NCBI GenBank assembly: GCA_029821755.1
Contig: JALGSV010000021.1
Coordinates: 1 to 54,801 of the forward strand
DNA: 54,801 nucleotides
DNA from: Candidatus Zipacnadum vermilionense
GTDB lineage: Bacteria > Armatimonadota > Zipacnadia > Zipacnadales > Zipacnadaceae
Direction: 5' to 3'
Positions within the stretch are counted from its first letter, which is position 1. The number at the start of each line of letters is the position of its first letter. Below the pieces are notes generated by a model. The model had not been told where the DNA came from and made no database searches. It was given only the letters and a program-made list of their open reading frames with translations. Made by a program: the position numbers and the translations under genes. Below, in pieces: positions 8,598-51,343 of this stretch.

Positions 8598-9000
8598 TCG
8601 CCTCCCCGAGGGGCTGGGCAGTGATTGGGGATGGGTTGCAGAGAGGGGAAATGAGTTTCTCGCCCTGACCGACCTTCACTTCCACGATCGCCACATCCTG
8701 GCCGCGCCAGCAGTCAGGTAGTCCACCGCAGGCGGAGGATGGTTCGGGGGCAGGTCAATTAGCCGCTGCCGAAGAAACGAGCCGAGACATGCGTACCATG
8801 TCCACCGCTCGAGGAGATTCTTGAGTGTCGGCACCTGACCCAAGCCTGTCCTCGCCGCGGCCTTGCTGGCCCAGTTCTGCCCGGACCCCAGTTTGGAACA
8901 GCAGACCGCCAACCATGAAATCCGAGTTGCGCCCAGCTCCGGTCCGGTCAGGGCTAGCGGTCCCCCCGGCGCAACCTCGCAACGGTGGGAACCGACAGGT
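8598..9000 (+). other. 403-bp gap, no convincing gene
   Basis: Open frames on both strands here have atypical composition and no recognisable motif. The minus-strand stretch near 8680-8890 has a readable frame (VDYLTAGAARMW), but I could not tie it to any family. No hairpin with a T-run was found after the GH106-like gene, and no clear promoter before 9001. Confidence 0.4.
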
Positions 9001-10155
9001 ATGAATGTCTCCAAGCACGACCGGGGAATCCTACGCTCCCTATCCGCGCGAGTGGCTGAACACGCCGCCGACCCCGTCCACGAGTCGCGGCGAAAACTGT
9101 GGCGCCAGCACAATGAACTGCAGGGCGAGAGGCCGGCAATCCTGGCCTATGTCCATGACTCCTGGCCGGAGTTCTTCAGCCTGCAAATCGAGGCCCCCCT
9201 CCTCCGCGGGTGGGAATGGACGCTCCGGCACACTCTGGCCGTGGCTGACCTGGACACCGACGAAGTTATCCCCCGCTACTTCGCCATCCCCTATGTTGCT
9301 CTCAACACGGACTTCGGCATGCCGCCACACATGCGCACAGTGGAGAGCGCGCGGCAGTCGGCCTACAAGTGGGAGGCGCCGTTGCGGCGCCCGGAGGACT
9401 TGCAGCGGCTTGTCCCGGGGATTACGGTGGAAGGCGCAGCCTCCCAGCGCAACTTCGCGCTGGCCCAGGAGCTGTTTGGTGACCTCTACGAAGTCCGCCT
9501 CACCGGCGGCTTGGGCCTGGGCATGGACGAGAAGGTGGCCTTCCTGCGGGGCATGGACCAGATGATGCTCGACATGTACGACAACCCAGCCTTCCTCCAC
9601 CGGCTGATGGCCTTCCTACGGGACGAAAAGATGAAGATGCTTAGGTACGGGGAGGCGCATCAGATCTTCCACCACGACGACGGGCGGCCGGCAAAGCTGC
9701 ACGAGATCAGAGGCGGGGAGGGCGCCCAGACCTTCGTCGGCATCTCACCCCCTATGTGGGAGGAATTCGTGTTTCAGTATCAGAAACCCGTCCTGGAGCT
9801 CTTCGGGACCTCGGCGTATGGCTGCTGCGAGCCGCTGCACGATAAGCTGGACGCGCTCATGACAATGAGGAACCTTCGTTGGGTATCTGTCTCGCCGTGG
9901 GCTGACCTGGAGATCTGCGCGGGGAAGCTCCAGGATAGATACATCCTCTCCTGGAAGCCGCATCCCGCGATACTCGCCGGGGAACGTTTTGACCCGGAAG
10001 AGATTCGCCGGGTGCTGCGAGAGGGCCTAGCTACCACGCGAGGCTGTAAGGTGGAGGTCATTATGAAGGACGTCACCACCACGGGCAACCAGCCACAGCG
10101 CCTCAAGACCTGGGTGCAGATCGCCCGAGAAGAGGTGGACAGGGCATGGGGATAG
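9001..10155 (+). CDS. uroporphyrinogen decarboxylase superfamily protein (corrinoid methyltransferase-like)
   Basis: 384 residues from the ATG at 9001; the ribosome binding site is weak, so the start is provisional. The chain has the URO-D superfamily pattern: an RP-poor N-terminal half with EVIPRYFAIPYVAL, a central GGLGLGMDEKVAFLRG, then FQYQKPVLELFGTSAYGCCEPLHDKLD, VSVSPWADLEICAG and ILSWKPHPAILAG. The YGCCEP-type block, with a cysteine pair ahead of a conserved glutamate and histidine, is seen in the MtaA/CmuA-like branch rather than in true HemE. True HemE functions in tetrapyrrole synthesis; this branch often transfers methyl groups between cobalamin proteins and cofactors, but no corrinoid protein is encoded in the window. 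The next gene (10374) is a second, more diverged member. Position between glycosidase genes suggests a link to sugar metabolism, which is inference. Confidence 0.65.
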   Translation: MNVSKHDRGILRSLSARVAEHAADPVHESRRKLWRQHNELQGERPAILAYVHDSWPEFFSLQIEAPLLRGWEWTLRHTLAVADLDTDEVIPRYFAIPYVALNTDFGMPPHMRTVESARQSAYKWEAPLRRPEDLQRLVPGITVEGAASQRNFALAQELFGDLYEVRLTGGLGLGMDEKVAFLRGMDQMMLDMYDNPAFLHRLMAFLRDEKMKMLRYGEAHQIFHHDDGRPAKLHEIRGGEGAQTFVGISPPMWEEFVFQYQKPVLELFGTSAYGCCEPLHDKLDALMTMRNLRWVSVSPWADLEICAGKLQDRYILSWKPHPAILAGERFDPEEIRRVLREGLATTRGCKVEVIMKDVTTTGNQPQRLKTWVQIAREEVDRAWG

Positions 10156-10373: not shown

Positions 10374-11403
10374 GTGGAGAAGACTGACCTAGCGGTGGGC
10401 TTCAGCGAGGCCTGGTGGGAGCAGCGGCACGGGCTGGCGATGACCGAGCGCTGGTATGTCGACCCTGAATTCCGGGCGCAGCGCTCCCGAGAGCGAGAAG
10501 TCGTGCTCCACCGGCGGTTCGGGCATCTCGGCTTGGGCAGCGAAGACCCCCCCCGCCTGCCCGGCGGGCCTGGCCTTTCCGCTCAGTCCTGTGGCCGAGG
10601 CCCTCGGACTGCCCCTAGCTTACCGCTACGAGGTGGAAAGTCACTGGTGGCCCATCCCCCTCAATCTCGACGACGAGGCCGCCGGGGGGCTGCGGCCCGT
10701 GCATGATTTTGGCAGCACCGCGTGCGCTGAGCGCTTGCTCCGGGAGTGGCAGTGGCTGGAGGAGCGCTTCGGCTGGAGGCCACCGCCGCCGGGTGAGTGC
10801 CAGGGCACCAGCGGGGTGATGAACACGGTGCTGGACCTGCGGGGTTACCAGATCCTGACCGACATGCACCTCAAACCCGACCTGGCTCGCCACCTTCTGG
10901 CGGTGGTGACAGAGACCCTCAAGTCGTATCTGGACTGGCAGTGCCAGGTGCTGTGGGGAGGGGTGCGGCCGGCCACGCTCGGTATCGGTAATTGCAGCGA
11001 CTCGCTGATCTCGCCGCACGCCTACCTGGACTTCGTCCTTCCCTGTGATGAATGGTTAGCCGCCAACCACGCGCACCTAGGCATCCACCGGGATAACCGC
11101 TTGGAGCCGTGGCTGGAAGCCTACCTGCATCACCCCAAACTCAACGCGGTGGATTGCGGCTGGGACTCAAGCCTTGCCGCTGTGCGCAAGATGCTCCCTG
11201 CCGATCGCTACCACGTGAATCTGCGCCTCGACCCCTGGTGACTGGCCACGGCAAAGCCCCAGGAGATTGTCGCCCAGGTACGCGCCTGGATCGAGGAAGC
11301 GGGACGGCCGCGCGCGCAGTTCGCCCTCATCTGCGACTGCGTAGACCCGGCGACTCCGGACGCCAACATCGAGGCCCTGTTTGACGGTGTCGAGATGGAG
11401 TGA
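10374..11403 (+). pseudogene. second URO-D superfamily protein, broken by a frameshift and an in-frame TGA
   Basis: Reading starts at GTG 10374 (EKTDLAVGFSEAWWEQRH, FGHLGLGSEDP). At a run of eight C residues (10547-10554) the frame must change by one base to continue as FPLSPVAEALGLPLAYRY, VMNTVLDLRGYQILTDMH, GNCSDSLISPHAYLDFVLP and VDCGWDSSLAAVRKMLP. A TGA at 11239-11241 interrupts LRLDPW, and the same frame then runs on through LATAKPQEIVAQVRAW to FALICDCVDPATPD and a normal stop at 11401-11403. Seven Cs would restore the first frame. The TGA could be a true nonsense mutation, a base error, or much less likely a recoded codon. Conserved tail wording after the TGA shows that the protein once extended about 54 residues further. 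Total about 342 residues, similar to its neighbour. Confidence 0.65.
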
Positions 11404-29489: not shown

Positions 29490-29800
29490 GCCCGGGGGCG
29501 ACGACGGCTGACCAGCGAGGACGTACTGGACCGGCTGCGGGAGCTGTTCATCGCGCGGGGCTTGCCAGCCCACCTGCGCTTGGACAACGGCTCGGAGTTC
29601 ACGGCGCGGCGGGTGCGCTCATGGCTGCAAAGCCTGGGAGCCCTTGTGAAAACGTATACCTGGAGTCGCTCAACGGCAAGGTGCGAGATGAGCTGCTCAA
29701 CGGAGAGATCTTCGACACGCTGATGGAAGCGCAGGTGTGGGTGGAGCGGGGGCGGAACCATTATAGTCAGGTGCTGCCGGACAGCTTCGCTATTCACGGC
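29490..29800 (+). mobile_element. IS3-family orfB (transposase) remnant, copy A
   Basis: Starts almost at the stop of the beta-helix gene. One frame reads ARGRRRLTSEDVLDRLRELF and LPAHLRLDNGSEFTARRV, including the second catalytic Asp of the DDE core. After RSWLQSLGA about ten residues are missing and the frame shifts. The next frame gives ENVYLESLNGKVRDELLNGE and IFDTLMEAQVWVERGRNHY, with the catalytic Glu. The N-terminal part and the conserved RPHSAL tail are absent. Confidence 0.75.
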
Positions 29801-30100
29801 ATCCATATCCTGGAAGCCACCGACTGTGCGAGTGCAAGCAGCGCCTGGGCAAAACCATCCGCGGGAACCAGAATAACCCCTGAGAAGCGAAGGGATTCAC
29901 CCCCGAGATAGCGTACAACCTGGCAGTACTGGGTGCCGCGGCTCTGTGCCGCCCCCCGCCGCACTTTCTGACCGGCGTTCACATATCGCCCCTGGGGAGC
30001 TCCGCCCCCTTTCAGACTTCCAGTGGGGCATCGGCAGAGGGGTCGGCGCTGTAGCGGACAAAAACCGGGCCACACCAAAATGCAGTACAGGGAGATCGCC
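29801..30100. other. gap, no recognisable gene
   Basis: Between the IS3 remnant and the heparinase-like gene only short, unsupported frames are present. No clear promoter motif was seen before 30101. Confidence 0.4.
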
Positions 30101-33100
30101 ATGCGTATCACGCTGCTTACAGTCTTGCTATTCACCACCGCCGCGGCCTTTGCCCGGCCTTATGGCAACGGCGACGTCATCCGCCTGAAGGAATACGTGG
30201 GAAGAGAGTGGGCCGACGAGCTCATTCATTACCCGCTCACGTTCACCCAGGGGGAGTTCCCGGGCGCGACAGTGCGGCTGCTCAGGAACGGGGCCGAAGT
30301 GCCCGCCCAGCTTGCCGAGGTGACGACCTACCCCGATGGCTCGCTGAAGACGGCGACGCTGTGGCTGGTGACCACTCTGCGCGCCAACGAGGTGCAGGAG
30401 CTGGTATTGCAGCCGGGTACGCCGACGGCGGCCGGGGACCTAGGTGCCGTCCGCAGAGACGGTGTGCTGGAAGTTACCACCGCCCTCACCGGCGCGCGCT
30501 TCAACCTGTTGGACCAGACCTTTGACCCGCCGGTCCCCGCCGAACAGGTGCCGCCCTATATCGCGGCCGTTCGCCAGCGCAGCGGCGCCTGGGGCGGGCG
30601 CGGCTGGTTCGAGACGCCGCATAAATGCCGCAGCGCCCGTGTGTGGGTGATGGAGGAAGGCCCGGTCTTCGTGAAAGTCGGCTTCCGGTATGCCTTCGAC
30701 GGCTATCGGGGGGAGGGGAAGGACATCTACCAGGGGTCCGTTCGCATCGCCGCCAGCCAAGAGTTGATCCAGGTCGACGAGGATTTCTCGCTAGGCGACC
30801 CCAAGGTCTACCAGTTCTGGAAGCCGAGGGACCGCGCCGACGAGATCAGTTGGGATTGGTGGCAATGGCGCCCGCACGACGCGGAGAGCAATTTCTGCTT
30901 CTCTCTCTACGACGGCCTGCGCCCGACGAAGGCGCGCTGGTTTGGTCATAGCGCCTCCCAGCCGGAGAAGCACACCGGCTCGGGTATCATGCAGCTTGAT
31001 ATTGAGACCGACTACCTGCTCACTTACAAGGCGACGCAGTTCGAGATCGATATTAACTCCCACCACGGCAACCAACCCGACCTGGGTCTGTCCTACTTGC
31101 TCTGGCGGGCGGAGGACCCGGAGAGCGACGCGCTCGCGGTGATCGGCTTGCGCCCTGTCGACTGGGTGCATCCCGACATGCTGCCGCGTACCAGCACCGC
31201 CATCAACCAACATACCAACACGGTGGAGCTGCGCGTCTACAGCACCGCGCAGCCCGACCTGGTGCTGAAGGCGCCGCTGCCCTTGGGCCAGCGCTCCTGG
31301 GGGCTCGTCACGTTGCGCATGCCCGAGGCCGCTCCGGTAGACGACGTGGAGAACGGCGAGGTGGTGAAGTACGGCTTCCAGAAGGGCAGCTCGCAGGCAC
31401 TACAGCTGCGCAACAAATATGGTAGCCGCCCGCTGGACAAGGTGAAGGACTGGACGCTGGAATGGCCGGTGGCGAAGAGCTTCCCCTCGCTGTTCATCAA
31501 GGAAGGCGGGCTGCCGGCGGTGCTCAACCGCATCCGTTCCAGCCAGACACTACTGAGCCGCGCGAAATCCCTGCGGCACAAGCCCATTAATCGCTATATC
31601 ATCAGCAGCACGCCGGAGAATGCGCAGGATGCCTACGCCGACCTGCTGCGCAACCTGGATGGGTTCATCAACGGTGTGTTCGACTGGGGGTATAACGCAC
31701 ACAACGTGGGCCTCAACATCAACCAGTTCCCCTGGTGGATGCAGGAGTACTCGGCGCAGTACGACTTGGTGATGGGCATGCCGGAAATCACCGTCGATCA
31801 GAAGAATACTCTGCGCGCCCATTTCTCCTTCTGCGCCCACATGCTGCACGACCCGAACTTCATGCCTCCGCGCGCGACGGGTGTGGGCTGGGGCTCGGCC
31901 AACATGCCCGTGAATATGCGCGGCGGGCAGGCGGTAACGGCCTGCGTGCTCTCGGACAACCCGGACGCCGAACCGTGGCTGAAGCTGGCGGTGGAGGTCG
32001 TCGACGTGCTGGTGCAAAAGGTCTGGTCGGAAGACGGTTCCAGCATTAGCGGGCCGCACTACACCAGCACCCAGGCCGACCCGCTGATGAACATGGCGCT
32101 GCCGCTGTACTACGCCGGCGCCATTCCGCCCATCCAGCAGAAATACCCGCGGCTGACCAGGTTCACTCGGTTGCTGATTGACCGCATGACCCCGCCCGAA
32201 CTGCGCGCCAGATATGTGCGTCTGCTGCCCACCATCGGCCACACCATGATGGAATACGACTGCAACATCGGCAAATACGCGCTGCTGATGAACTTGACCG
32301 ACCGCAAGTTGGGCGGGGAAGCCTACTGGATGTGGAAGCGCGCGGGCAGCGCGCTGGACGGCTTCATGGACGGCATCTACTACATGAACGACGATTTCGA
32401 CGAGCGCGAGCCCAACTGCAAGAGCGTCGTCTACCCCGGCAGCACTACCATTCTGCGCAACGGTTTCCCCCGCGAGAACGAGACCTACATGGCTATCCAC
32501 GTGGGCAACCAGGGCGTTGACCATTACGATCGCGATGTCGGCGCCTTCCTGCTCTACGCCAAGGGCGTGCCGCTGATGATGGACTTCAGCTCCATGTACA
32601 CGCCCAATTGCTGGCAAAGCATCTGGCACAACACCCTCACCTGGAACGTCGAGGAGCATCAGCACAAAACGCCGTGCCCGGGCCGCGACAACGGGTGTTT
32701 CTACACGGTGAACAAGCTGGGGTGGTTCGATCACGAGTATGAGCCTCACACGCTCTTCGACCGCGACGCGGACTCGCAGACGAAGGCCGCCGACGGCTAC
32801 AAGGAACTGGGTGGCGAAATGCCGGCGTACGCCTTCTCGCCGGAGGCGGACTACGCCCAGGCCTCTATCCCGCTGAGGGAGTTCCAGTTGTGGCCGTGGT
32901 TCGACCACGAGGAGTCAGAGAACCCCCAGGCGTGGTCCTCGTTCAGCGAGTTCCGCAAGCTACGGTTGCAGCGCCCCTACGAGTGGCAGCGCCGCTACCT
33001 GTTCATCAAGGACGCCGACCTGCAGGGGCCGAATTATTTCCTCATCGCCGATGACCTGGACGGCCAGGCGGAGTTGACTCCTCAGGCGAATTTCTGGTGC

Positions 33101-33781
33101 CTGGCCGACTCCCAGCAGATCACCGGCGACCTGGTGCGCTGGAAGGGGCAGTATGACCTGGACCTGGACATGTACGTGGCCTGGCCGAAGAAGCCGCAGA
33201 TCGGCACACGCGAGTGGTGGCACACGCAGCGCGGGCCGACGCGCGCCGACTTCAAGAACGGCCGGGAGTACCAGATCGCCGCTCACCTACATAACACGCT
33301 CGGCAACGGCGGGTTCACCGTGCTGCTGTACCCGCGCGGGCGCTATGAAGTGCAGCCGAAATACACCAGCACCGAGGATGGCAAGGCCGTCACCGTCACC
33401 ATCGGCCCCCGCACCGACCAGATCTTCTGTAGCCGCCAGCCGTTCAACACGACCGTTGGCGGGGTGGCCTTCGACGGCACCGTCGGGGTAGCGAAGCTAC
33501 ACCCGGACTACACCGCGCTGGTGCTCTGCGCACCCGGGGCCATCAGTGCCCGCGGCATCGGCATGGTCTCGGCGCAGGCGCCTCTCACCATCCGGGTCGA
33601 CGGCAACACCCTCACCGGCACCGCCATGGGCCAGGGCGAGGCCAGCCTCACCGTCCCCCAGGCCTGGGCCGGCCGAGAGCTGCTCGTCAACGGCGAAGCG
33701 GCCGGCGTCTTCGACGCCAACGGACACCTGGTCGTGAGCCTCCCCGGCGCCGGGGCCACGCTGTCCGTGGAGGGAAACTAG
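30101..33781 (+). CDS. secreted heparinase II/III-like polysaccharide lyase, paralog 1
   Basis: 1226 residues; ATG 30101 is chosen for its AGGGAG box and immediate signal peptide (MRITLLTVLLFTTAAAFA). Residues 25-130 are a beta domain shared with two other genes here (DVIRLKEYVGREWADELIHY; D/Y-x-L-x4-W-x2-E-[LP]-x-x-Y). The middle region, about 480-780, is helical, with WGSANMPVNMRGG and YDCNIGKYALLMNL, as in the (alpha/alpha) toroid of alginate/heparin lyases. Then comes the heparinase II/III-type sandwich: LRNGFPRENETYMAIHVGNQ, VDHYDRDVGAFLLYAKG, PLMMDFSSMY. The HYDRD-x-G-x-F motif carries the His/Tyr used for beta-elimination in that fold. Substrate unknown, likely an acidic or uronate-containing glycan. 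Aldo/keto reductase follows 22 bp downstream. Confidence 0.7.
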   Translation: MRITLLTVLLFTTAAAFARPYGNGDVIRLKEYVGREWADELIHYPLTFTQGEFPGATVRLLRNGAEVPAQLAEVTTYPDGSLKTATLWLVTTLRANEVQELVLQPGTPTAAGDLGAVRRDGVLEVTTALTGARFNLLDQTFDPPVPAEQVPPYIAAVRQRSGAWGGRGWFETPHKCRSARVWVMEEGPVFVKVGFRYAFDGYRGEGKDIYQGSVRIAASQELIQVDEDFSLGDPKVYQFWKPRDRADEISWDWWQWRPHDAESNFCFSLYDGLRPTKARWFGHSASQPEKHTGSGIMQLDIETDYLLTYKATQFEIDINSHHGNQPDLGLSYLLWRAEDPESDALAVIGLRPVDWVHPDMLPRTSTAINQHTNTVELRVYSTAQPDLVLKAPLPLGQRSWGLVTLRMPEAAPVDDVENGEVVKYGFQKGSSQALQLRNKYGSRPLDKVKDWTLEWPVAKSFPSLFIKEGGLPAVLNRIRSSQTLLSRAKSLRHKPINRYIISSTPENAQDAYADLLRNLDGFINGVFDWGYNAHNVGLNINQFPWWMQEYSAQYDLVMGMPEITVDQKNTLRAHFSFCAHMLHDPNFMPPRATGVGWGSANMPVNMRGGQAVTACVLSDNPDAEPWLKLAVEVVDVLVQKVWSEDGSSISGPHYTSTQADPLMNMALPLYYAGAIPPIQQKYPRLTRFTRLLIDRMTPPELRARYVRLLPTIGHTMMEYDCNIGKYALLMNLTDRKLGGEAYWMWKRAGSALDGFMDGIYYMNDDFDEREPNCKSVVYPGSTTILRNGFPRENETYMAIHVGNQGVDHYDRDVGAFLLYAKGVPLMMDFSSMYTPNCWQSIWHNTLTWNVEEHQHKTPCPGRDNGCFYTVNKLGWFDHEYEPHTLFDRDADSQTKAADGYKELGGEMPAYAFSPEADYAQASIPLREFQLWPWFDHEESENPQAWSSFSEFRKLRLQRPYEWQRRYLFIKDADLQGPNYFLIADDLDGQAELTPQANFWCLADSQQITGDLVRWKGQYDLDLDMYVAWPKKPQIGTREWWHTQRGPTRADFKNGREYQIAAHLHNTLGNGGFTVLLYPRGRYEVQPKYTSTEDGKAVTVTIGPRTDQIFCSRQPFNTTVGGVAFDGTVGVAKLHPDYTALVLCAPGAISARGIGMVSAQAPLTIRVDGNTLTGTAMGQGEASLTVPQAWAGRELLVNGEAAGVFDANGHLVVSLPGAGATLSVEGN

Positions 33782-40800: not shown

Positions 40801-43800
40801 ATGCGGAAGCTTCTTGTGGCAGGCATCTTGATGGTGTTAGTGGCGACGGCGGGGCAGGCGGACATGATCTTCACGCTCCAGGACTACTTGCACCACCAGT
40901 GGCGCGATGAGTTGGTGACATATCGGGTGGACAAAGGGAAGGTGCCGCGCCCGGCGCGGCTGATGGGGCCGAGGGGACAGTTTGTCCCCGTGCAGATACG
41001 GGACCTAGGCCAAGAGGCTGAAGTGGCCTTCATCGTTCGCGATCTGCCGGCAGATGGCGAGGTCACCTACACATTGACTGCCGGGACGGCCATTGGCCGG
41101 CCCCTGACGCAAACGCTCAGGAACGGCCTGCTGCTGGACGCCGGTGAGGTGGCGGCCCTGGTGCCGGGGGTGGGCGAGGAGAGGCCCGCCGGCAAGACGC
41201 TGGCCGAGGTGCGGGCGCCGCTGCTGGGAGTGCGCACGGCGGGGGGCCAGTGGCTGGGTTCGGGGCGACTGGTGGGCGACCTGCCGGTCAAGTCCATGCA
41301 GACGACTCTGGTGGCCTCCGGGCCGGTGTACGCCGAAGTGCGCACTGACTACGTGGTGGAGGGTGGACGGTACTCGATGACCGTGCGCGTGGTAAAGGGC
41401 CAGCCGGCAGTGCTGGTGTCCGAGGAGTTCGACATGCCCGGCACGGCGGCAGAGAAGTGTTTCTTCCAATACGACCTGAAGGAAGGCTTCGAGCCAGAGA
41501 GGCTGGCCGTTCTGGGGCGGCTGTGGCGCCAGCGCACCGACGCCACCAAGGTGTGGATGGACGCCGTTAACCAGAGCCTCGGCGAGGGTGGGGACGACTA
41601 CAAACTAGACTTCGACGCCGACCGACGCGAGGTGGCCTGCATTGGCTACGTGACCTGGTGGCCGGAAACGGTACGGGTGATGGCCCTGCACGCCAGCCCC
41701 ACCGGCCAGACGCTCGCCTTCTTCCCCACCCGCATCGGCCAGTGGCGCAACCCCATGGGCTGCTACCTGGAGACTCGCAAGGACGGCAGCCTGTACCTGT
41801 CACTGCCCTTATACATCCAGCAGAGCTGGGCCAATGACGGGGTGGGCGGGCGCGGCTCCTTCGGCAGCGGCAGTCTCGAGAGCGGCTGGCCGCTCACGGC
41901 GCTGCGAAGACATTGGGCCATGATCCTCACCCCGGAAGAGGAGGCCTTCCCCGCCGTCGGGCGATCGTCCGTAGGGGAGGCGGTCGTCAAGTACTCCGAC
42001 CTGCCGCTGGATAAGCTCAAGGACTGGATCTTCAACTGGGACTGGGACGGGGTGAAGTACCCGCGGCTGTATGTGGACCCCGACAAGCTGGCGGAGACGC
42101 GAGTGCGAGCCCAACAAATCCCGGGGTGGGACGCGGGCCTACGCACCTATCCTACGCGCCCCCTGACCTATGTGCTTACCGGGGACCCCGAGGTCGGCGA
42201 CGAGTTGCTGCACGCAGGCGTGCCGGAGCAGAACGCCTCGTGGTATGCCAACGCCGGCGCCCTGCCGGGCTTGCGGTTCTACGTGTCGAACATTCTCGAT
42301 AGATGGGGCTACGTCGGCTTCATGGCTCCCAACAACGCCGCGCCAATGAACGAGCTGGTGCGCTTTGACGCCGCCATGTCCGTGCCGGAGGCCACCGAGG
42401 CCGAGAAGGCGGAGATGCAGGAACTGACGGCGTTCGTGGCCCAGGTCGTGTACGACACCGACTGGCATGCGGTAGGGGCCGGCTGGCATCTGGGCAATCC
42501 CAACATGCCGCCCCGGCAGGAGGCCCACTTGGGCGTGGCCTCCCGGACGCTGCCCACGCACCCCCTGGCCGCCGCCTGGGCGGCCCGCGGCGCCGCGCAG
42601 CAGGAGCGCTCGCTGCGTGAGCAGGTCAGACCCTCCGGGGCCTGGATCGAGTGCCCCCACTACCAGTATGAAGCAGCTTTCTACCCAATGATGCAGGCCG
42701 CGATGCCTCTGAAGCTGCAGGGCACCTACGACGTCTTCGCCAATCCGCTCCTCAAGAAGACGATGGTCTACCTGGTCAACCTGCTCACCCCACCCGATCC
42801 GCGCTTCAAATCAGGGGTGCAGAAGCTGCGTACGCTACCGGCTTTCGGCAACGGCTCGTGGGAATTCATGCCGGTCACGGGCTGGATCGCAGCCATGTCG
42901 GCCCAAGACGACCCTGAGTTCTCCCAGGAGATGATGTGGGCCTGGGAGGAGCAGGGCGGCCAGCTCTGGTTCCCGATGAGTCAGTTGGTAGTGGACCCGG
43001 CACTGCCGGGGAAGCAGCCCGACTTGACGAGTAGCCTCTATGAGGGTTTCGGCGCGGTGCTCCGCTCCGGATTCCCCTCGGAGGACGAGACATGGATGGC
43101 CTTCCGCCACGGCGACTGCGTGGCCCACTACGACTATGGCGACCAGGGGAGCTTCATGCTGTTCGCGAAGGGAGCGCCGCTAGTGCTGCATTTCGGCTCG
43201 CAGTACGCTCCGTCCTTCCAGGGCGCCTGGTACTATAACCGGGCCTGCTTCAACCACCGGCCAGTCACGGCGGCCGACACCGAGGTTTTCAAGATGCTGC
43301 AGGAGTATGAGCTAGACCCCGCCAACTTCTCGCTAGGGACGGAGGCCTGGGCCGAGACAGAGGGCGGCTCGTATGTGATGAGCAACCGCGGCTTCTTCAC
43401 CGGCGTGCAGGCGGACTACGCGCGGGGGGAGCAGGTGCAGCGGGCCCAGGCGGCGGTAGGCAAGACGCCCGACTACCGGCAGCCGGGCAATAGCCCGCTG
43501 CCGACCATCTCCATTCCCGAGACCCACTGGAACCGGCGGATCGCTCTACTCAAGGACGCGGATCCGCTGGCGCCCAACTACTTCGTGATCCGCGACGACC
43601 TGATCGGGCAGAGCGGCTATCCCGGTGAGTGGAACATCTGGGCCCTGGCGCAGGACGTGCAGTTCAACGCCAATCAGGCGATAGTGACCAGCAAGTACGG
43701 CGTGCTCATGGACGTATTCATGGCTGAGCCCCTGCAGCCGCAGTGGTCCACGCAGCAGACGTCCCACAACTTCCTCGCCGGTCCCTCCAGCCAGTACGCA

Positions 43801-44148
43801 GTGGACAAGCCTTGGCAGGAGACGCTGACCAATCTGCGAGCGAAGCAAGCGCCGGGGAAGGGCTTCCTGGCAGTGCTCTACCCACGCAAGGCCGACGAGC
43901 CCCTGGCCACCTACACCTCTCTCGCCGACGGCAAGGGGGTCAAGGTGGTCACGCCTAAAGGCACCGACTGGGTCTTCCTGAGTGATGAGCCGGTGCAGTG
44001 GACCGGGGAGGGGCTGTCCTTCTCCGGGACGGCCGGGGCGATCCGCCAGGCGGGGGACCAGTGGACAGTGGAGTTCTTTGAGCCAGGCGAGGCCACGGTC
44101 AACGGGAAGACTATCAAGGCCGACGAGCCACAGGAAGTCGTGCTGTAG
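40801..44148 (+). CDS. secreted heparinase II/III-like polysaccharide lyase, paralog 2
   Basis: 1115 residues from ATG 40801, with GGGGAGGGG upstream. Signal peptide LLVAGILMVLVATAGQA. N-domain FTLQDYLHHQWRDELVTY matches paralog 1 at 30101. Helical centre with WHLGNPNMPPRQEAHLGVAS and IECPHYQYEAAFYPMMQ. Lyase-type sandwich: LRSGFPSEDETWMAFRHGD, VAHYDYGDQGSFMLFAKGAP, LHFGSQY, in which the HYD-x-G-D-x-G-S-F block carries the presumed catalytic His and Tyr. The C-terminal beta domain is the one whose scrap is found at 40136-40423. About 110 residues shorter than paralog 1. Exported; substrate unknown. No obvious co-transcribed partner: recombinase debris follows. Confidence 0.7.
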   Translation: MRKLLVAGILMVLVATAGQADMIFTLQDYLHHQWRDELVTYRVDKGKVPRPARLMGPRGQFVPVQIRDLGQEAEVAFIVRDLPADGEVTYTLTAGTAIGRPLTQTLRNGLLLDAGEVAALVPGVGEERPAGKTLAEVRAPLLGVRTAGGQWLGSGRLVGDLPVKSMQTTLVASGPVYAEVRTDYVVEGGRYSMTVRVVKGQPAVLVSEEFDMPGTAAEKCFFQYDLKEGFEPERLAVLGRLWRQRTDATKVWMDAVNQSLGEGGDDYKLDFDADRREVACIGYVTWWPETVRVMALHASPTGQTLAFFPTRIGQWRNPMGCYLETRKDGSLYLSLPLYIQQSWANDGVGGRGSFGSGSLESGWPLTALRRHWAMILTPEEEAFPAVGRSSVGEAVVKYSDLPLDKLKDWIFNWDWDGVKYPRLYVDPDKLAETRVRAQQIPGWDAGLRTYPTRPLTYVLTGDPEVGDELLHAGVPEQNASWYANAGALPGLRFYVSNILDRWGYVGFMAPNNAAPMNELVRFDAAMSVPEATEAEKAEMQELTAFVAQVVYDTDWHAVGAGWHLGNPNMPPRQEAHLGVASRTLPTHPLAAAWAARGAAQQERSLREQVRPSGAWIECPHYQYEAAFYPMMQAAMPLKLQGTYDVFANPLLKKTMVYLVNLLTPPDPRFKSGVQKLRTLPAFGNGSWEFMPVTGWIAAMSAQDDPEFSQEMMWAWEEQGGQLWFPMSQLVVDPALPGKQPDLTSSLYEGFGAVLRSGFPSEDETWMAFRHGDCVAHYDYGDQGSFMLFAKGAPLVLHFGSQYAPSFQGAWYYNRACFNHRPVTAADTEVFKMLQEYELDPANFSLGTEAWAETEGGSYVMSNRGFFTGVQADYARGEQVQRAQAAVGKTPDYRQPGNSPLPTISIPETHWNRRIALLKDADPLAPNYFVIRDDLIGQSGYPGEWNIWALAQDVQFNANQAIVTSKYGVLMDVFMAEPLQPQWSTQQTSHNFLAGPSSQYAVDKPWQETLTNLRAKQAPGKGFLAVLYPRKADEPLATYTSLADGKGVKVVTPKGTDWVFLSDEPVQWTGEGLSFSGTAGAIRQAGDQWTVEFFEPGEATVNGKTIKADEPQEVVL

Positions 44149-44399: not shown

Positions 44400-44818
44400 A
44401 AACAGCGCTGGCGCGTCGCCTGCGCCTGTGGACACTCCTCAGCCATTTTGCCTCCACCACCGTGGGCCGAGGCGAGCATCTCCCTGGCGTGGCGAACACC
44501 ATCGCTGACCGGCTGGAGTTCCGGCCTGAGGTGGGGCACGACTACCTGTTCACGGGTCGGGAAGGCAAGCCGCTGTCGATCAAGGGGATTGTGCGGGCCT
44601 TTGAGTTGGTGAAGCGGAGGGTGGGGTTGGTCCGCGAGGGGGTGACGCTGCACACGCTGCGGCATACCTTCGCGACCATGCTGCCGCAGGAGGGGTGCGA
44701 CCTGGTCTCGATCAAGGAAATGCTCGGGCATGCCGACCTGGCGACGACCTCGATCTACCTGCACGTCTGCGCGCCGCACCTGCAGGCGGGGGTGGCGCTG
44801 CGTCCGCTTGGCGGGTGA
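44400..44818 (+). mobile_element. tyrosine recombinase/integrase remnant
   Basis: The frame ending at 44818 reads VGHDYLFTGREGKPLSIKG, LHTLRHTFATMLPQEGCDLV, SIKEMLGHADLATTSIYLHV. H-x-x-R, LGH and the nucleophilic Tyr of the XerC/D-type core are present, but the first catalytic Arg and the arm/core-binding domains are not. The bases 44149-44400 before it hold no recognisable gene. Confidence 0.65.
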
Positions 44819-45410: not shown

Positions 45411-45702
45411 CTACCTTGCAGGGATGGGGCACTCATTCTCCTTGTTGGGTTGCTCCCCACGTGCTATGCTAATTGACCTCCTCGCGCATCCTCCGACTGA
45501 TCGTTGGGGGATTGCTCCTGGGTCAAGGGAGACTCGGGGGACGGCGGCGCGCTGTATTTCGTCGAGGTCGTAGTTCAGGTAGCGGATGGTCGTCCCTAGA
45601 TCCTCGTGGCCGAGGAGGGCCTGTACTTGCCGGATGTTGAGGCCGCTGTCGAGCCAACGCTTGGCGGCGAAGCGGCGGAGGCTGTGGAGAGAGTAGCGGT
45701 TG
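45411..45702 (-). mobile_element. tyrosine recombinase C-terminal fragment
   Basis: Frame: NRYSLHSLRRFAAKRWLDSG, LNIRQVQALLGHEDLGTTIR, YLNYDLDEIQRAAV, stop at 45411. H-x-x-R, LGHEDLGTT and the Tyr of the catalytic core are visible. The upstream part is replaced, exactly at about 45702, by IS3 orfA sequence. It differs in sequence from the integrase remnant at 44400-44818. Confidence 0.65.
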
Positions 45703-45936
45703 CGCCTGGTCCGCCACGATCCGTTTGAGCCGCGCATTCTCTTTCTCCAGCTCCCGGAGCCGTTTGGCCTGATCCACCCGCAGCCCCCCGTGCTCCTTGC
45801 GCCGGCGGTAATAGGTCTGGTCGGTTATCCCTAGCTTGCGGCACACTACCCCGACCGTGCCCCCCTGGGCTAATTCCACCTGCGCCTGTCGCAACACGTC
45901 AATGATCTGCTCCGGCGCGTACCCCTTGCTTGGCAT
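45703..45936 (-). mobile_element. IS3-family orfA remnant
   Basis: From ATG 45936: MPSKGYAPEQIIDVLRQAQV, ELAQGGTVGVVCRKLGITDQ, TYYRRRKEHGGLRVDQAKRL, then ELEKENARLKRIVADQA. This is the helix-turn-helix and leucine-zipper part of IS3 (IS407-type) OrfA. The gene is cut after ADQA. The element's outer end probably lies near 46010-46018, where TGTCCTTGCCCCCGG can be read on the minus strand; no second inverted repeat was found. Confidence 0.7.
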
Positions 45937-46018
45937 CCTGCTTGCCCCTTTCTTCCTGCGCCAGCTTTCCCTATACTGACCTAACAGTTGGACTTGTTTC
46001 CGGGGGCAAGGACAAACC

Positions 46019-46915
46019 ATGACTTACCTCAGCATCCAGTTCCTCGCAGTTGCGCTGGTCGGGTGCCTGCTCGCCGCCGGCGTCTGCCGCGCGGCGACGC
46101 GGGAGTATGTACTGGAGGACCTTCTGAACAAGCAATGGACGCGGGAGCCACTCTCGTATGCCCTGGAGGCGGAGCAGGGGACCTGCGATCCGGCCTCCGT
46201 GCGCTTGCGCGGGCCCGAGGGGCCGGTCGGCTGCCAACTAAGCGACGTGGTGTTGTGGCCGGGGACGCAATCGCTGAAGTCGGCCAACCTGTGGTTTGTC
46301 ACGGACCTGGCTCCGCTGGCAAGGAAGATCTTCACGGGGGAGTACGGCCCGAAGCCCCCGGCGGAGGCGGGCGCGACTACGGACCTGCACGTCACGGTCA
46401 CGCCGCAAGGAACCGAGTCCGTCAATGATCAGTTCGGTGTCCGCCTCATGCGGGGGGAACAGCGCTACGCAGAGCCGGTGCCCGCGAGTCAGGTCCCCGG
46501 TCCGGTCTTGGGGATGCGCCTGGCGGAGGGGACCTGGTTCGGAGGCAGCGACCTTTACGGGGAGATGAAGGTCAGCGGCTACAGCGCCACGCTCACCGCG
46601 CAGGGCCCGGTCTTCGCGGAGGTCACTTACCACTATACCTACGCGGATGGCAACTCGCTGCAACTGGCGGTGCGCCTGGGGATCGGTGACTGCGCGCGCG
46701 AGTTGCACGTCGCCCGGTGCGACCCCGGCGCCTGGGTGAAGCTGGTGGGACAGAACGGGTGGCATGAGCTGCTGCCGGTGATGAAGTCCGCCGAGGGCGA
46801 CGTGTGCGTGGACCTAAACCTGGCGGCGGGCGCGGTGGGAGGCGTGCGTAAGTTCGCTATCGGCGAGAGCGCGCCTACCGAGGCGGTCGGCTTGCGGCCG
46901 CTGCGCGACGGCTAG
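46019..46915 (+). pseudogene. N-terminal stump of a heparinase-like lyase, paralog 3
   Basis: 298 residues from ATG 46019. Signal peptide SIQFLAVALVGCLLAAGVC, then YVLEDLLNKQWTREPLSYAL, matching FTLQDYLHHQWRDELVTY and RLKEYVGREWADELIHY of the full-length proteins. Further matches: VRLRGPEGPVGCQLSDVV and ANLWFVTDLAPLARK (compare ATLWLVTTLRANEVQ in paralog 1), and SATLTAQGPVFAEVTYHYTY. It stops at RPLRDG, before the helical toroid and the catalytic sandwich. The IS3 remnant lies directly in front of its start codon, so expression may now depend on that end. It cannot be an active lyase. Confidence 0.65.
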
Positions 46916-46976
46916 TCTGGGAGAAATGCAGACAGACCTTGGAGGCGGGCTATCCTCTTCCAGGGAGGCACTCTAT

Positions 46977-47768
46977 ATGGACCGAGTTCTCGCCTTTGGC
47001 TGCCATCCGGACGATGTGGAATTCCAGGCGGCCGGGACGCTGATCCTGCTCGCCGAACGAGGCTGGGAAATCCATATCGCGACCATGACCGGCGGAGAGC
47101 TCGGCCATCCCACGCTTCCGCCACAGCAGATCCGCGCCCGTCGTCTCGAGGAGGCCCGCCGCGCCGCTGAGTCCATCGGCGCCACCTACCACTACGCCGG
47201 CGGGCATGACCTGGAGGTCCAGTACGACAGCCCCTACCGCCGGCGCGCTGTCCGCGTCATGCGCGAGGTGGACCCCCTCCTCGTGTTCACCAACCCGCCG
47301 ATGGACTACCTCCCGGACCACGAGGAGACCTCCCGCTTGGTGCGCAATGCCGCCTACATCGCCTCGATCCCCAACTACGACTGCGGTGTCCCCACCACCC
47401 CCACCAACCGCTTCCCCTACCTTTACTACTGGAACGCCAGCAGCCTTACCGACATCTTTGGTCGCCCGCTGCCACTGTCGTGCGTGGTAGACATCTCGGA
47501 CATGATGGGGGGCAAGCTGGCGATGCTGCGCTGCCATGAGTCCCAGCGCGAGTGGCTGGCCCATCACAACAACTACGACGATTACACCGAGATTATGCGC
47601 AAGCGGTCAGAGCGACAGGGCCAGGGAATCGGCGTCGCCTACGCCGAGGGTTTCATCCAGCAGCGCAGTACCGGTCATCCGCAGGACAACATACTGAAGG
47701 AGATCTTGGGGGAATTGTGCGTGGAGTTGCCGGGGGCCGCTACCTCTTTACCGGGGAGGCACACATGA
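46977..47768 (+). CDS. PIG-L/LmbE-family deacetylase
   Basis: 263 residues. ATG 46977 is chosen over the earlier in-frame ATG because GGGAGG lies eight bases upstream and the family motif starts ten residues in: CHPDDVEFQAAGTL gives the zinc-binding His-x-Asp-Asp. Other family blocks are MTGGELGHPTL, RRLEEARRAAESIGATYHY and PMDYLPDHEETSRLVRNA (third zinc-binding His near 114). Known members remove N-acetyl groups from GlcNAc-linked substrates (PIG-L, MshB, BshB). Cytoplasmic, no signal peptide. First gene of a three-gene operon; its stop overlaps the ATG of the acyltransferase gene (ATGA). Confidence 0.85.
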   Translation: MDRVLAFGCHPDDVEFQAAGTLILLAERGWEIHIATMTGGELGHPTLPPQQIRARRLEEARRAAESIGATYHYAGGHDLEVQYDSPYRRRAVRVMREVDPLLVFTNPPMDYLPDHEETSRLVRNAAYIASIPNYDCGVPTTPTNRFPYLYYWNASSLTDIFGRPLPLSCVVDISDMMGGKLAMLRCHESQREWLAHHNNYDDYTEIMRKRSERQGQGIGVAYAEGFIQQRSTGHPQDNILKEILGELCVELPGAATSLPGRHT

Positions 47769-48583
47769 CACAGGCGCAGGGTAAAACGGTTGTCCGCCAA
47801 GCCGACGTGGAGCGCGCGCTCCGCGAGGTCGGCGTGCAGGCGGGCGAGGTGGCCTTGGTGCATAGCAGCCTCTCCAGCTTGGGTTGGGTGGAGGGCGGGG
47901 CCGAGGCGGTCATCGAGGCCTTCGTGGCGGTGCTGGGGCCCGCCGGCACCCTGGTGTTGCCCACGTTGTGTCAGAAGGGCGCCGAGCGGTGCTTCCAGAT
48001 CTGGGATGTCCGTACTTCTCCCTCGGACGTCGGGCGGATCACCGAAGTAGGGCGCTTGTGCCCTGACGCCTTACGCAGCGACCATCCCACCCACTCAGTG
48101 GCCGCCCTGGGCGCCGAGGCTGTCCAGATCACGCGCGACCATGGCTGCGCCTACGGACGCCCCAGCCCCTGGGGGCCGGCGGCCTTCGGGATAGGCAGCC
48201 CCTGGGAGCGACTGTACGAACGAGACGCGCACTACCTGTTCCTGGGGGTGACCACCTCGTGCGACACCTTGGGCCACTTCGCTCAGGCCCAGTTCGTGGC
48301 GGAGGTGCTGGCGGCTTCAGGGGATCGCTGCCAGGAACTCGAGCCCGAGCTTGCCGGCTGGCAGCAGCCCGGCGTCTGGCCCAACTTAGGCTTCGCGGTA
48401 GTCGAGGAGTGGCTCCAGGAGAAAGGCGCCATGCGCTATGCGCGGGTCGGGGAGGCTACCTTGCGCGCCACCCGCGCCCGCGTCAACGCCGACACCATCA
48501 TCGAGAAGCTGCGTGCCGCGCCGGAAGGGTTGCTGCCCCTTGAGTTCGTCGCCTGGTACCGCCGGGCCACCGGCTCGGACTAG
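47765..48583 (+). CDS. AAC(3)-family aminoglycoside N-acetyltransferase-like protein
   Basis: 272 residues from ATG 47765, coupled by a 4-nt overlap to the deacetylase. The AAC(3)/YokD blocks are present: VALVHSSLSSLGWVEGGAEA, GTLVLPTL, RTSPSDVGRITEVGRL, RSDHPTHSVAALG, FGIGSPWERLYERDAHYLFL. His of SDHPTHS matches the catalytic base region, and the N-terminal H-S-S-L block binds acetyl-CoA. The family includes true resistance enzymes and acyltransferases of sugar and natural-product metabolism. Beside a de-N-acetylase and an amidohydrolase a metabolic role on an amino sugar is more likely than antibiotic resistance; this is inference. Confidence 0.8.
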   Translation: MTQAQGKTVVRQADVERALREVGVQAGEVALVHSSLSSLGWVEGGAEAVIEAFVAVLGPAGTLVLPTLCQKGAERCFQIWDVRTSPSDVGRITEVGRLCPDALRSDHPTHSVAALGAEAVQITRDHGCAYGRPSPWGPAAFGIGSPWERLYERDAHYLFLGVTTSCDTLGHFAQAQFVAEVLAASGDRCQELEPELAGWQQPGVWPNLGFAVVEEWLQEKGAMRYARVGEATLRATRARVNADTIIEKLRAAPEGLLPLEFVAWYRRATGSD

Positions 48584-48599
48584 CAAGGAGAGCCCGCGT

Positions 48600-49505
48600 A
48601 TGAGCGCCCCCGGACGCCGATTATGGATCGACTCGCATATTCACATCCGTGGCTGGAGTGAGGAGGGCGGCCCGCGCGACTTCCCCGTTGAGGCGATCCT
48701 GGCCGTCCTGGACGCCGAGCCAGCCGGACTCGTCTGGGTTATCAGTCTCGGGTTCCCCGAGATGGCGCGCCTGCGCGCCGACCCGGTGGCGGCGGTGCCC
48801 TGGGTCAACGAGGGGCAATGGCGCCTGCTGCAGGAGGCCCCGCCGGGGCGCCTGTTCGGCTCGCTGAGCGTCCATCCCCGGGCGCTGCGGGAATCGCACG
48901 CGGCGCTCGATCTGTACGGCGGGGAGCGGGGCTTCGTTCAGGTAGGGGAAATCCTGTCGCACGACTGGGGGTGCGCACTGGATGATCCGGGCCTGGTGGA
49001 GTTGGCGCGCCACGCCGCCGACCTGGGCCTTCCCCTGCAGTGCCATTGCTCCACCAGCGCCGTCCCCGACGGCGAGCACATTCGGCAGACGATCAGCCTT
49101 GCTCGGCAGGTGCCCCAGGCGCAGGTCATCGCCGCCCACGCTATCGGCGGGAGCAATTCCTACCTCCATATCACTGCCGCCGAGATCTACCGCACGCTGG
49201 GCCACGACAACCTGTGGCTGGAGATCCGCGACTTCCACACGCGCGAGTACCTGCGGGCGGCGCTGCAGCGCCTGGGCGCGGAGCGCCTGCTGGTGGGCAC
49301 CGACTGGATCGCCCGCAAACAGCCGCCGTTCCCGCCGTACGGCCTCCTGTTCTCGGAGACCGACGTTGACCGCAACCCCTACCCTTGCTGCGTCGCCAGC
49401 CTGGAAGGCTTCCTCCGTGAGTCCGGCGCCACCGATGAGGAGGTAGACTGCATCGCGTCCGCGAATGCCCTGAGGCTCTTCCGTCTGGCCGACCGGCTCG
49501 GCTAG
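48600..49505 (+). CDS. amidohydrolase family 2 metal-dependent hydrolase
   Basis: 301 residues from ATG 48600 with AAGGAG eight bases upstream, 16 bp behind the acyltransferase gene. Metal-ligand and fold motifs of the amidohydrolase-2 TIM barrel are all seen: DSHIHI (residues 11-16), LQCHCST (near 148), AAHAIGGSN (near 179) and LVGTDWI (Asp near 233). The C-terminal SANALRLFRL matches the usual gNAaRLf end. Known members hydrolyse or decarboxylate small cyclic or acyl compounds. The substrate is not evident; with the preceding genes it may act on an N-acyl sugar derivative. An IS3 remnant begins directly after the stop. Confidence 0.8.
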   Translation: MSAPGRRLWIDSHIHIRGWSEEGGPRDFPVEAILAVLDAEPAGLVWVISLGFPEMARLRADPVAAVPWVNEGQWRLLQEAPPGRLFGSLSVHPRALRESHAALDLYGGERGFVQVGEILSHDWGCALDDPGLVELARHAADLGLPLQCHCSTSAVPDGEHIRQTISLARQVPQAQVIAAHAIGGSNSYLHITAAEIYRTLGHDNLWLEIRDFHTREYLRAALQRLGAERLLVGTDWIARKQPPFPPYGLLFSETDVDRNPYPCCVASLEGFLRESGATDEEVDCIASANALRLFRLADRLG

Positions 49506-49850
49506 CCACGGCGCGGCGAGTGCGCCCCTGGCTGCAGAGCCTGGGGATCAAGGCCCTATGCATCGAGCCGGGCAGTCCTGCAGAACGCAGTTCCGCGAGG
49601 AGAACGGGTACCTGGAGTCCTTCAACGGCAAGCTGCGGGAGGAGTTGCTCAACGGAGAGATCTTCGACACGCTCCTGGAGGCGCAGGTGTTGGTGGAGCG
49701 GTGGCGAAACCGCTACAATGAAGTGCGACCGCACAGCGCCCGGGAGTACCGGCCGCCGGCGCCCGCGACGATCCAGTCGCCCCCCGTGGCGATCGAGCCG
49801 GAGCACCTGAGTTGCCCGGCCCAAAGGGCCCAGACTCCAACTCAAGAAGT
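49506..49850 (+). mobile_element. IS3-family orfB (transposase) remnant, copy B
   Basis: Starts at the stop of the amidohydrolase gene: RRVRPWLQSLGIKALCIEPG, then a frame change with about seven inserted residues, then ENGYLESFNGKLREELLNGE, IFDTLLEAQVLVERWRNRYN and EVRPHSAREYRPPAPATI. The catalytic Glu and the conserved RPHSA tail are present; the Asp residues are lost. It is related to copy A at 29490 and in the same orientation. Confidence 0.75.
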
Positions 49851-50089
49851 GGTAGCGCAGAGGGGCGCAGGTCACTTCGTCGACATGGCCGCGCGGGAGG
49901 CGGAGGTGCCGTAGACAAGTGGGAAGTGGTAGACATAGCGCGGACGCAATGTGGTCGGCGAGGGGAGAGGGTGGGGGCGCGTAGCGGAATTCACTTTCCC
50001 GAGACTAGGGGGCCGTGGGAAGCTCGCAGTCAAGAAGACAATCTCTTCGGGGAGTGCGCGGACGGTTCTGGAAAGGCAGTGGTGACGCA

Positions 50090-51343
50090 GTGAGGCGAGC
50101 AGGGCTGCTACTGGCGGTGTGGGCGCTGCAACTCCAGGGAGTCTGCGCGCAAGAACCGAGCCCGGCGCGGCAGTGGTCGCGCTTCCGCGGAGCTCTCGGC
50201 CTCGGCGTGTCGCCCTTCACGAACGTGCCGATGAACTGGAACGCGGCCAGCGGCCAGGGCATCATTTGGAAGGTCGCGCTGCCGAGTGCAGGCACCAGTT
50301 CGCCCATCGTGTGGGACAACCGCATCTACGTGACGGGCGGCGACGAGCACGAGCGCGAGGTTGACTGCTTCGACGCGACAACCGGGGCTCTGCTGTGGCG
50401 TCACCCGGTGCCGGAAGCGACCGTCCCCAAGCCGCGCCTGTACGAGATGACGGGCTGGGCGAGTTCCACGCCAGTCACCGATGGCGAGCGGGTCTACGCC
50501 ATTTTCCCGACCGGCGACCTGGTGTGCTGCGACCTGCAGGGCAGGCGGCTGTGGCAGCAGGGCTACGATCTGTCGCGCAACCTCTACGGCCACTCGACCT
50601 CGCTGGTGACGCACCGCGGCCTTCTGTACGTCCAACTCGACCAGGGCGATCTCCCCGACGGCCTGTCCCGCCTGGTGGCGCTCGACGCGCGCACCGGGAA
50701 GAGGGTCTGGGAGCGCCAGCGCGCAGTGGCCGGGTCGTGGACCACCCCGATCATCATCGAGGTTCCCCTCGAGGGCGGCGCGACCCGCGAGGAACTCATC
50801 ACCAGCGCCCGCCCCTTCGTGATCGCCTACGACCCCCTGACCGGTGAGGAGTACTGGCGGGCAGACGCGGTGCGGGGCGACTCGGCTCCCTCGCCGGTCT
50901 ACGCGTCGGGGCGGATCTTCGTGGCCAACATCTACTCCAAGCTCGTGGCCCTGCGCCCGGGCGGTCGCGGTGAGGTAACCTCCAGCCGGACCCTCTTCGC
51001 CGTGCCCGGCAAGCTACCGGACATCTGCAGCCCGGTGGCCACCGACGCGTACGTGTTCACACTCAATACCCAGGGCGTGCTGAGCTGCTATGCCACCGGA
51101 GACGGGGCCCTGCTGTGGACGCACGACTACCGCTTGGCTTGCCAGTCGTCGCCCTCGCTCGTGGGAGACAAGGTCTACGTGATCACGGATAATGGTAGGG
51201 GCTTCGTGATCCACGCGGGACCGGAGTACCGGGAACTGGCGACGAATGATCTGGGGGAAGCCTGCGCGACGTGTCCGGCTTTCGCCGACGGCCGAATCTA
51301 CGTGCGCGGGGGCCAGCACTTGTTCTGCTTGGGAGCGCGGTGA
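50090..51343 (+). CDS. secreted PQQ-like beta-propeller protein
   Basis: 417 residues from GTG 50090, the start that opens a signal peptide (RRAGLLLAVWALQLQGVCAQ); its ribosome binding site is weak, and an earlier ATG at 50015 is possible. The opening RQWSRFRGALGLGVS and repeated blade blocks (GIIWKVALPSAGTSSPIVW, DATTGALLWRHPV, LDARTGKRVWERQR, YDPLTGEEYWRADA) are those of PQQ-type or BamB-like outer-wall propellers common in Planctomycetota and relatives. Each block has the G-x-x-x-W tryptophan dock. No residues for quinone binding could be verified, so a dehydrogenase activity is not claimed. Probably periplasmic. Confidence 0.8.
   Translation: MRRAGLLLAVWALQLQGVCAQEPSPARQWSRFRGALGLGVSPFTNVPMNWNAASGQGIIWKVALPSAGTSSPIVWDNRIYVTGGDEHEREVDCFDATTGALLWRHPVPEATVPKPRLYEMTGWASSTPVTDGERVYAIFPTGDLVCCDLQGRRLWQQGYDLSRNLYGHSTSLVTHRGLLYVQLDQGDLPDGLSRLVALDARTGKRVWERQRAVAGSWTTPIIIEVPLEGGATREELITSARPFVIAYDPLTGEEYWRADAVRGDSAPSPVYASGRIFVANIYSKLVALRPGGRGEVTSSRTLFAVPGKLPDICSPVATDAYVFTLNTQGVLSCYATGDGALLWTHDYRLACQSSPSLVGDKVYVITDNGRGFVIHAGPEYRELATNDLGEACATCPAFADGRIYVRGGQHLFCLGAR

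Follow-up and report, generated by a model that had tools for sequence, protein, structure and literature searches.

A conserved AAC(3)-like and amidohydrolase gene pair with a PIG-L deacetylase gene of probably separate ancestry in Candidatus Zipacnadum vermilionense

Three adjacent genes of Candidatus Zipacnadum vermilionense (assembly of 4.39 Mb in 115 contigs, 95% complete), which encode a PIG-L deacetylase, an AAC(3)-like acyltransferase and an amidohydrolase, very probably represent a conserved gene pair, AAC(3)-like and amidohydrolase, to which a PIG-L gene has been recruited. That the two members of the pair act in a shared pathway is well supported because they form a conserved coupled operon. 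With moderate confidence, the best explanation overall is a one-off trio made of this stable core and the recruited PIG-L gene, in which an N-acetylation would be followed by a step at a metal site.

Organisation and mosaic ancestry of the three genes

The window, i.e., the whole stretch of 54,801 nucleotides that was analysed, carries the three genes on the forward strand. The gene for a PIG-L/LmbE-family N-deacetylase (46977..47768, 263 aa; PF02585 with 75.7 bits, Pfam cut-off 28.2) is followed by that for an AAC(3)-like N-acyltransferase of the Antibiotic_NAT family (47765..48583, 272 aa; PF02522 with 145.4 bits, cut-off 25) and by that for an Amidohydro_2 (ACMSD-like) metal-dependent enzyme (48600..49505, 301 aa; PF04909 with 55.1 bits, cut-off 26.4). 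All three reading frames are intact, begin with ATG at the first and end with a stop codon at the last of these coordinates. The end of the PIG-L gene and the start of the AAC(3)-like gene have ATGA (47765-47768) in common, a 4-nt overlap, and a gap of 16 nt (48584-48599) separates the AAC(3)-like gene from the amidohydrolase gene, which confirms the layout given in the preliminary description. Purine-rich stretches resembling ribosome binding sites were read from the sequence 5' of each start (AGGGAGG, GGGGAGG and AGGAGA, respectively). The PIG-L start at 46977 was favoured over 46926, as the relative in another genome of the order (G025) starts at the same methionine. A simple consensus scan of positions 46700-50100 revealed neither a sigma-70-like promoter nor a + strand terminator, and we infer that the three genes are cotranscribed. 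Their GC3 of 0.83-0.87 is similar to that of the adjacent genes, so codon composition gives no sign of a foreign origin.

The preliminary description had proposed one dedicated pathway for exchange or protection of an N-acyl group, in which the PIG-L protein deacetylates and the AAC(3)-like protein re-acylates an amino sugar and the amidohydrolase processes a later intermediate. The tight spacing and overlap of the three genes would fit this proposal, as would the apparent catalytic integrity of all three proteins, judged from their residues and leaving Gln174 of the AAC(3)-like protein aside (see below), and the fact that the nearest solved relatives of the PIG-L protein include GlcNAc-malate and diacetylchitobiose deacetylases. 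The distribution of the PIG-L gene speaks against it. PIG-L homologues as such are common (35 of the 41 genomes of the order, E ≤ 1e-30), and a close relative (75%) was found only in G025, on a contig (C252) that carries DUF6785/DUF6784-type and other genes and lacks the pair. A tblastn search with the window PIG-L protein (E ≤ 1e-3) gave matches at none of the 40 relatives' loci and at none of 31 loci from a wider genome collection, and comparison by eye of the match lists for the order showed contigs on which a PIG-L match and an AAC(3)-like match are less than 100 kb apart in the window's genome only. Because a PIG-L gene lies near the pair in no other genome searched, the trio is not conserved among them; it is present in one of 41 order genomes, the window's own, and was rejected as a conserved system. 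The proposed exchange of acyl groups between a deacetylase and an acyltransferase consequently found no support, and we regard one dedicated pathway for all three proteins as unlikely.

The DNA itself is composed of blocks with different matches. Positions 46977-47730 align only with the G025 locus (about 77%), positions 47798-49465 align with AAC(3)/amidohydrolase loci of family f5 and with other such loci (about 70-72% over the longest f5 matches), and positions 49494-49874 align with IS remnants. The DNA matches on either side place the putative junction zone between blocks of different ancestry at 47731..47797 (+ strand), which also counts against a dedicated pathway, since the overlap lies at this junction. 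Judged by sequence comparison, the 4-nt overlap is best read as the junction formed when the blocks met, because the DNA matches split there and the window PIG-L protein extends 11 C-terminal residues past its G025 relative, reaching into the AAC(3)-like leader. Genes that are tightly spaced, even with a 4-nt overlap, may thus have met recently, and their closeness need not reflect a long-standing functional connection.

Such a rearrangement is plausible because mobile-element remnants flank the genes: an IS3-type OrfA remnant (HTH_Tnp_1; 45523..46020, - strand; PF01527 with 52.8 bits), an IS3-type OrfB remnant (rve_3; 49494..49914, + strand; PF13683 with 71.3 bits) directly 3' of the amidohydrolase gene, and a tyrosine-recombinase fragment (44462-44818). 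The same remnants, together with the truncated N-terminal part (298 aa) of a PcRGLX-like lyase gene, the upstream neighbour outside the trio (46019..46915, + strand), could suggest that the three genes are decaying cargo between IS remnants with no present function. We consider this improbable, given three full-length genes with conserved active-site residues and with a coding-type GC3 like that of their neighbours.

Recurrence of the AAC(3)-like and amidohydrolase genes as a pair

Amidohydrolase homologues were found at 21 places in 15 genomes when the 41 order genomes were searched (E ≤ 1e-20). At 17 of the 21 places an AAC(3)-like gene lies directly upstream on the same strand; this count includes the partial AAC(3) gene of G037 C183 as well as G037 C180, where about 0.8 kb lies between the two genes. 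The four exceptions are G026 C18, with the AAC(3)-like gene 2.5 kb off, G026 C114, G019 C136 and a contig-edge fragment in G033. Of the single coupled operon postulated earlier, the AAC(3)-like/amidohydrolase part is thus retained and the PIG-L part is not. A scan of bacteria and archaea with one genome per species yielded 31 amidohydrolase loci (the collection loci mentioned above), 18 of them with the pair, and the two genes are at most 25 nt apart or overlap in 16 of these 18, a 4-nt overlap being possible in nine. The 41-genome order set and the 31-locus collection set share most genomes; L108 and L116 are extra. These two, one planctomycete (L108) and one lentisphaerote (L116), represent the pair outside the Armatimonadota, the other loci there having the amidohydrolase alone.

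Amidohydrolase genes unaccompanied by an AAC(3)-like gene were also found, namely at 13 of the 31 collection loci (one cut by a contig end and two being very weak matches) and at seven of nine loci of a further set, in which about 1.5 kb or less of flank is visible. The amidohydrolase was detected in 20 of 291 genomes of the phylum (best eight candidates per genome scored), in one of 392 genomes from the surroundings of the planctomycete, this one being the planctomycete itself, and in six of 387 genomes around the lentisphaerote, including G292, G293 and G295 themselves (at most six candidates per genome scored in both cases). Carriage of the amidohydrolase by viruses was considered and rejected, since 98 stretches of viral contigs that matched the pattern encoded no relative. 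Within the window's own family, the 14 other genomes all lack the amidohydrolase. Trees were built on chosen subsets of 24 and 22 rows; the L110 amidohydrolase, with a stop inside the match range, and the partial AAC(3)-like sequence of L093 had been left out of the respective alignments. Both pair proteins of the window group beside or among f5-family sequences, in a nine-row clade (100/99) for AAC(3) and an eight-row clade (96/96) for the amidohydrolase. This fits a gain of the pair by transfer in the window's genome, the alternative being repeated loss in the other members of the family.

Families and active sites of the three proteins

The predicted structure of the AAC(3)-like protein (mean pLDDT 84) matches the folds of AAC(3)-IVa (6mn3, E 4e-21), FrbF (3sma) and BA2930. 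With these proteins and YokD it shares the PF02522 family, the fold, the CoA-binding segment HSSLSS and the residues Thr168 and His171. Among 43 homologous rows, the Thr and His of the TxxHxAE motif are present in all 42 that cover the site, and H171 aligns with His183 of BA2930 (counted by hand in the alignment). According to PMC8956665, the His and Glu of this motif form a catalytic dyad and are completely conserved in the Antibiotic_NAT members analysed there. In the window protein and in all nine of its clade mates, however, the position of the dyad Glu is occupied by Gln (Gln174 in the window protein). Across the 42 rows this position is Gln in 21 and Glu in 21, two of the Glu rows being one gene. 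The exchange does not define the pair, since its distant members (38-45% identity) retain the Glu. A loss of acetyl-CoA binding, which the preliminary description had considered, is not indicated by the sequence, as HSSLSS and His171 are kept, but with the dyad Glu replaced, the protein cannot simply be taken for an ordinary acetyltransferase; it may transfer acetyl groups weakly or catalyse a different reaction.

The Antibiotic_NAT fold, with AAC(3)-IVa as nearest relative by fold, could also indicate detoxification or resistance, with the AAC(3)-like protein as the enzyme that inactivates aminoglycosides or some other amine antibiotic and with accessory roles for its neighbours. Surroundings with mobile elements would be in line with this, and PMC8770908 describes a putative aminoglycoside cluster in Rickettsia buchneri that contains both PIG-L deacetylases and DegT aminotransferases. 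The protein is, however, only 28-30% identical to AAC(3)-IVa and misses the cut-offs of all AAC(3) NCBIfam models by far (best 95.9 of 270 bits); it lacks the dyad Glu; and FrbF, YokD and BA2930 are inactive on aminoglycosides, as stated in PMC8956665. Furthermore, that it recurs beside the amidohydrolase in numerous sediment-type MAGs points to a metabolic function. A resistance function is thus quite improbable. Its operon partner, an amidohydrolase, also sets the protein apart from AAC(3)-IVa, FrbF, BA2930 and YokD. AAC(3)-named genes are readily taken as resistance genes in environmental surveys, and the conserved operon of a Gln-dyad clade with an ACMSD-like enzyme suggests a metabolic role beyond antibiotics. 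The pair offers a handle, by paired substrate screening, on the function of the large Antibiotic_NAT family in uncultured Armatimonadota.

The predicted model of the amidohydrolase (mean pLDDT 94.6) most closely resembles the fold of ACMSD-type decarboxylases, and the metal ligands are kept. Its closest fold is CAC3332 (3cjp; VIA Z 22.8), and IDCase, ACMSD and LigJ follow at Z 21-22, rows within 1 Z being tied. It has the fold (Z 21-23) and the His/Asp metal-ligand pattern of ACMSD, IDCase, gamma-resorcylate decarboxylase, the LigJ hydratase and CAC3332, whereas its identity to the proteins matched in the structure comparison is only 13-20%. A single-sequence search of the PDB with the protein gave no match. 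Residues H13, H15, H180 and D235 are invariant in 29 aligned amidohydrolase sequences and H149 is present in at least 90%; these five residues correspond to metal and catalytic positions of ACMSD. The ACMSD-type family includes decarboxylases and hydratases, and "hydrolase" is therefore used as a label only.

The PIG-L protein fits its family by its metal-site motifs HPDD and PDH, which align with those of 2ixd; family and motifs are shared with BshB1 and diacetylchitobiose deacetylase (2ixd, 3we7, 6p2t). A role of PIG-L as BshB deacetylase in low-molecular-weight thiol (bacillithiol-like) metabolism was rejected as highly improbable: although BshB1 is its best NCBIfam model, the score of 124.7 bits lies below the cut-off of 182.5, two other PIG-L genes are present in the genome, and the last enzyme, BshC, was not found in this 95% complete genome by a search that as a control detected BshC in three of 14 known genomes.

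Proposed chemistry and genomic context of the pair

The combination of a PIG-L deacetylase and an N-acetyltransferase in one pathway or cluster has precedents in mycothiol biosynthesis (MshB/MshD) and in aminoglycoside pathways (BtrD-type deacetylase with AAC(3) self-resistance). Compared with the window trio, these systems are not known to have an amidohydrolase partner, and their acetyltransferase differs, MshD being a GNAT protein. No mycothiol- or aminoglycoside-type cluster was recognised in the window. The literature searched, which covered few subscription journals, yielded no account of either the trio or the pair; the earlier statement that no described pathway with exactly this trio is known agrees with this, even though its deacetylase and acetyltransferase part is not without parallel. 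Each of the three proteins belongs to a known family, the conserved pair looks undescribed, and the third member looks like a chance addition.

The reading that we prefer, a stable pair with a recruited PIG-L gene, can be extended to a mechanism. Its core would be the operon of the AAC(3)-like and then the ACMSD-like gene, which is found repeatedly within the order and, in rare cases, in other phyla. A PIG-L gene of separate ancestry would have come to lie immediately 5' of it, amid numerous IS3 remnants, and, because it overlaps the AAC(3)-like start, is probably translated together with that gene. The AAC(3)-like protein would N-acetylate an amino-bearing small molecule, such as an amino sugar or an amino acid-like compound, with acetyl-CoA as donor and His171 as base, and the amidohydrolase would then hydrolyse or decarboxylate the acetylated product at its metal site. 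In this genome, PIG-L may cleave off an N-acetyl group and thereby supply the free amine. This chemistry is tentative: folds and residues are observed, and we infer the order of reactions, the substrate and the PIG-L role. Its weak points are the link to amino sugars, which comes from two loci, and Gln174 in place of the dyad Glu. Similarly speculative is the idea that the pair constitutes an undescribed two-enzyme metabolic module, in which a Gln-for-Glu clade of Antibiotic_NAT proteins works on a non-antibiotic substrate and passes the acylated product to the amidohydrolase, the deacetylase having just been gained here. If true, this genome would be a case of pathway extension by operon fusion.

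The gene neighbours of the pair loci were assigned by crude ORF calling, and part of them were scanned against Pfam. A hint at amino-sugar chemistry comes from two distant pair loci: both contain genes for DegT aminotransferases and URO-D-like proteins, and in addition one has GH123 and the other a ceramidase-like gene. At most f5 pair loci, an NADPH-dependent glutamate synthase-type protein and a dihydroorotate-dehydrogenase-like subunit are encoded upstream of the pair, which gives no clear hint on the pathway. Further neighbours are a heparinase-like protein or helicases, and no theme is common to all loci. In the planctomycete (L108, 84-11301), three DegT aminotransferases, a ceramidase-like protein, the pair and a URO-D-like protein are encoded in one direction, and this locus is well suited to guessing the pathway of the pair. 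At L051, two amidohydrolase copies stand in tandem (7456-8331 and 8407-9282) without an AAC(3)-like gene, and according to the alignment the first copy lacks the beta-5 metal-ligand His.

Several IS remnants of the genome are related to one another. A piece of the OrfA remnant (45902-46014) matches L124, another IS remnant of the same genome, in which (at about 1501-1822) a few bases separate the start of OrfA from the end of OrfB, as would follow from an internal deletion. The OrfB remnant at 49494-49914 has eight matching places in the genome, the query itself counted, with pieces on five other contigs. It is 83-85% identical to a second OrfB remnant of the window (29588-29785), both deriving from one IS3-type element. 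The lyase fragment 46019-46915 directly abuts the OrfA remnant and is probably a truncated gene; it shows 30 and 29% identity to the N-termini of the lyases encoded at 30023-33781 (1252 aa) and 40801-44148 (1115 aa), respectively. The lyases of the window have no Pfam match of their own at E 0.01 where scanned, and the name PcRGLX reflects their likeness to a so-named L104 protein. The vicinity is rich in secreted carbohydrate-active proteins, which comprise a GH106-type rhamnosidase, a GH141-type beta-helix protein and these PcRGLX-like lyases. Near the GH106-type gene lies a weakly URO-D-like gene (10456-11241; 20.1 bits, below the cut-off of 23.9), so that URO-D-like genes occur here, if weakly, as well as at two pair loci; the reading frame 8863-10155 is without a Pfam match.
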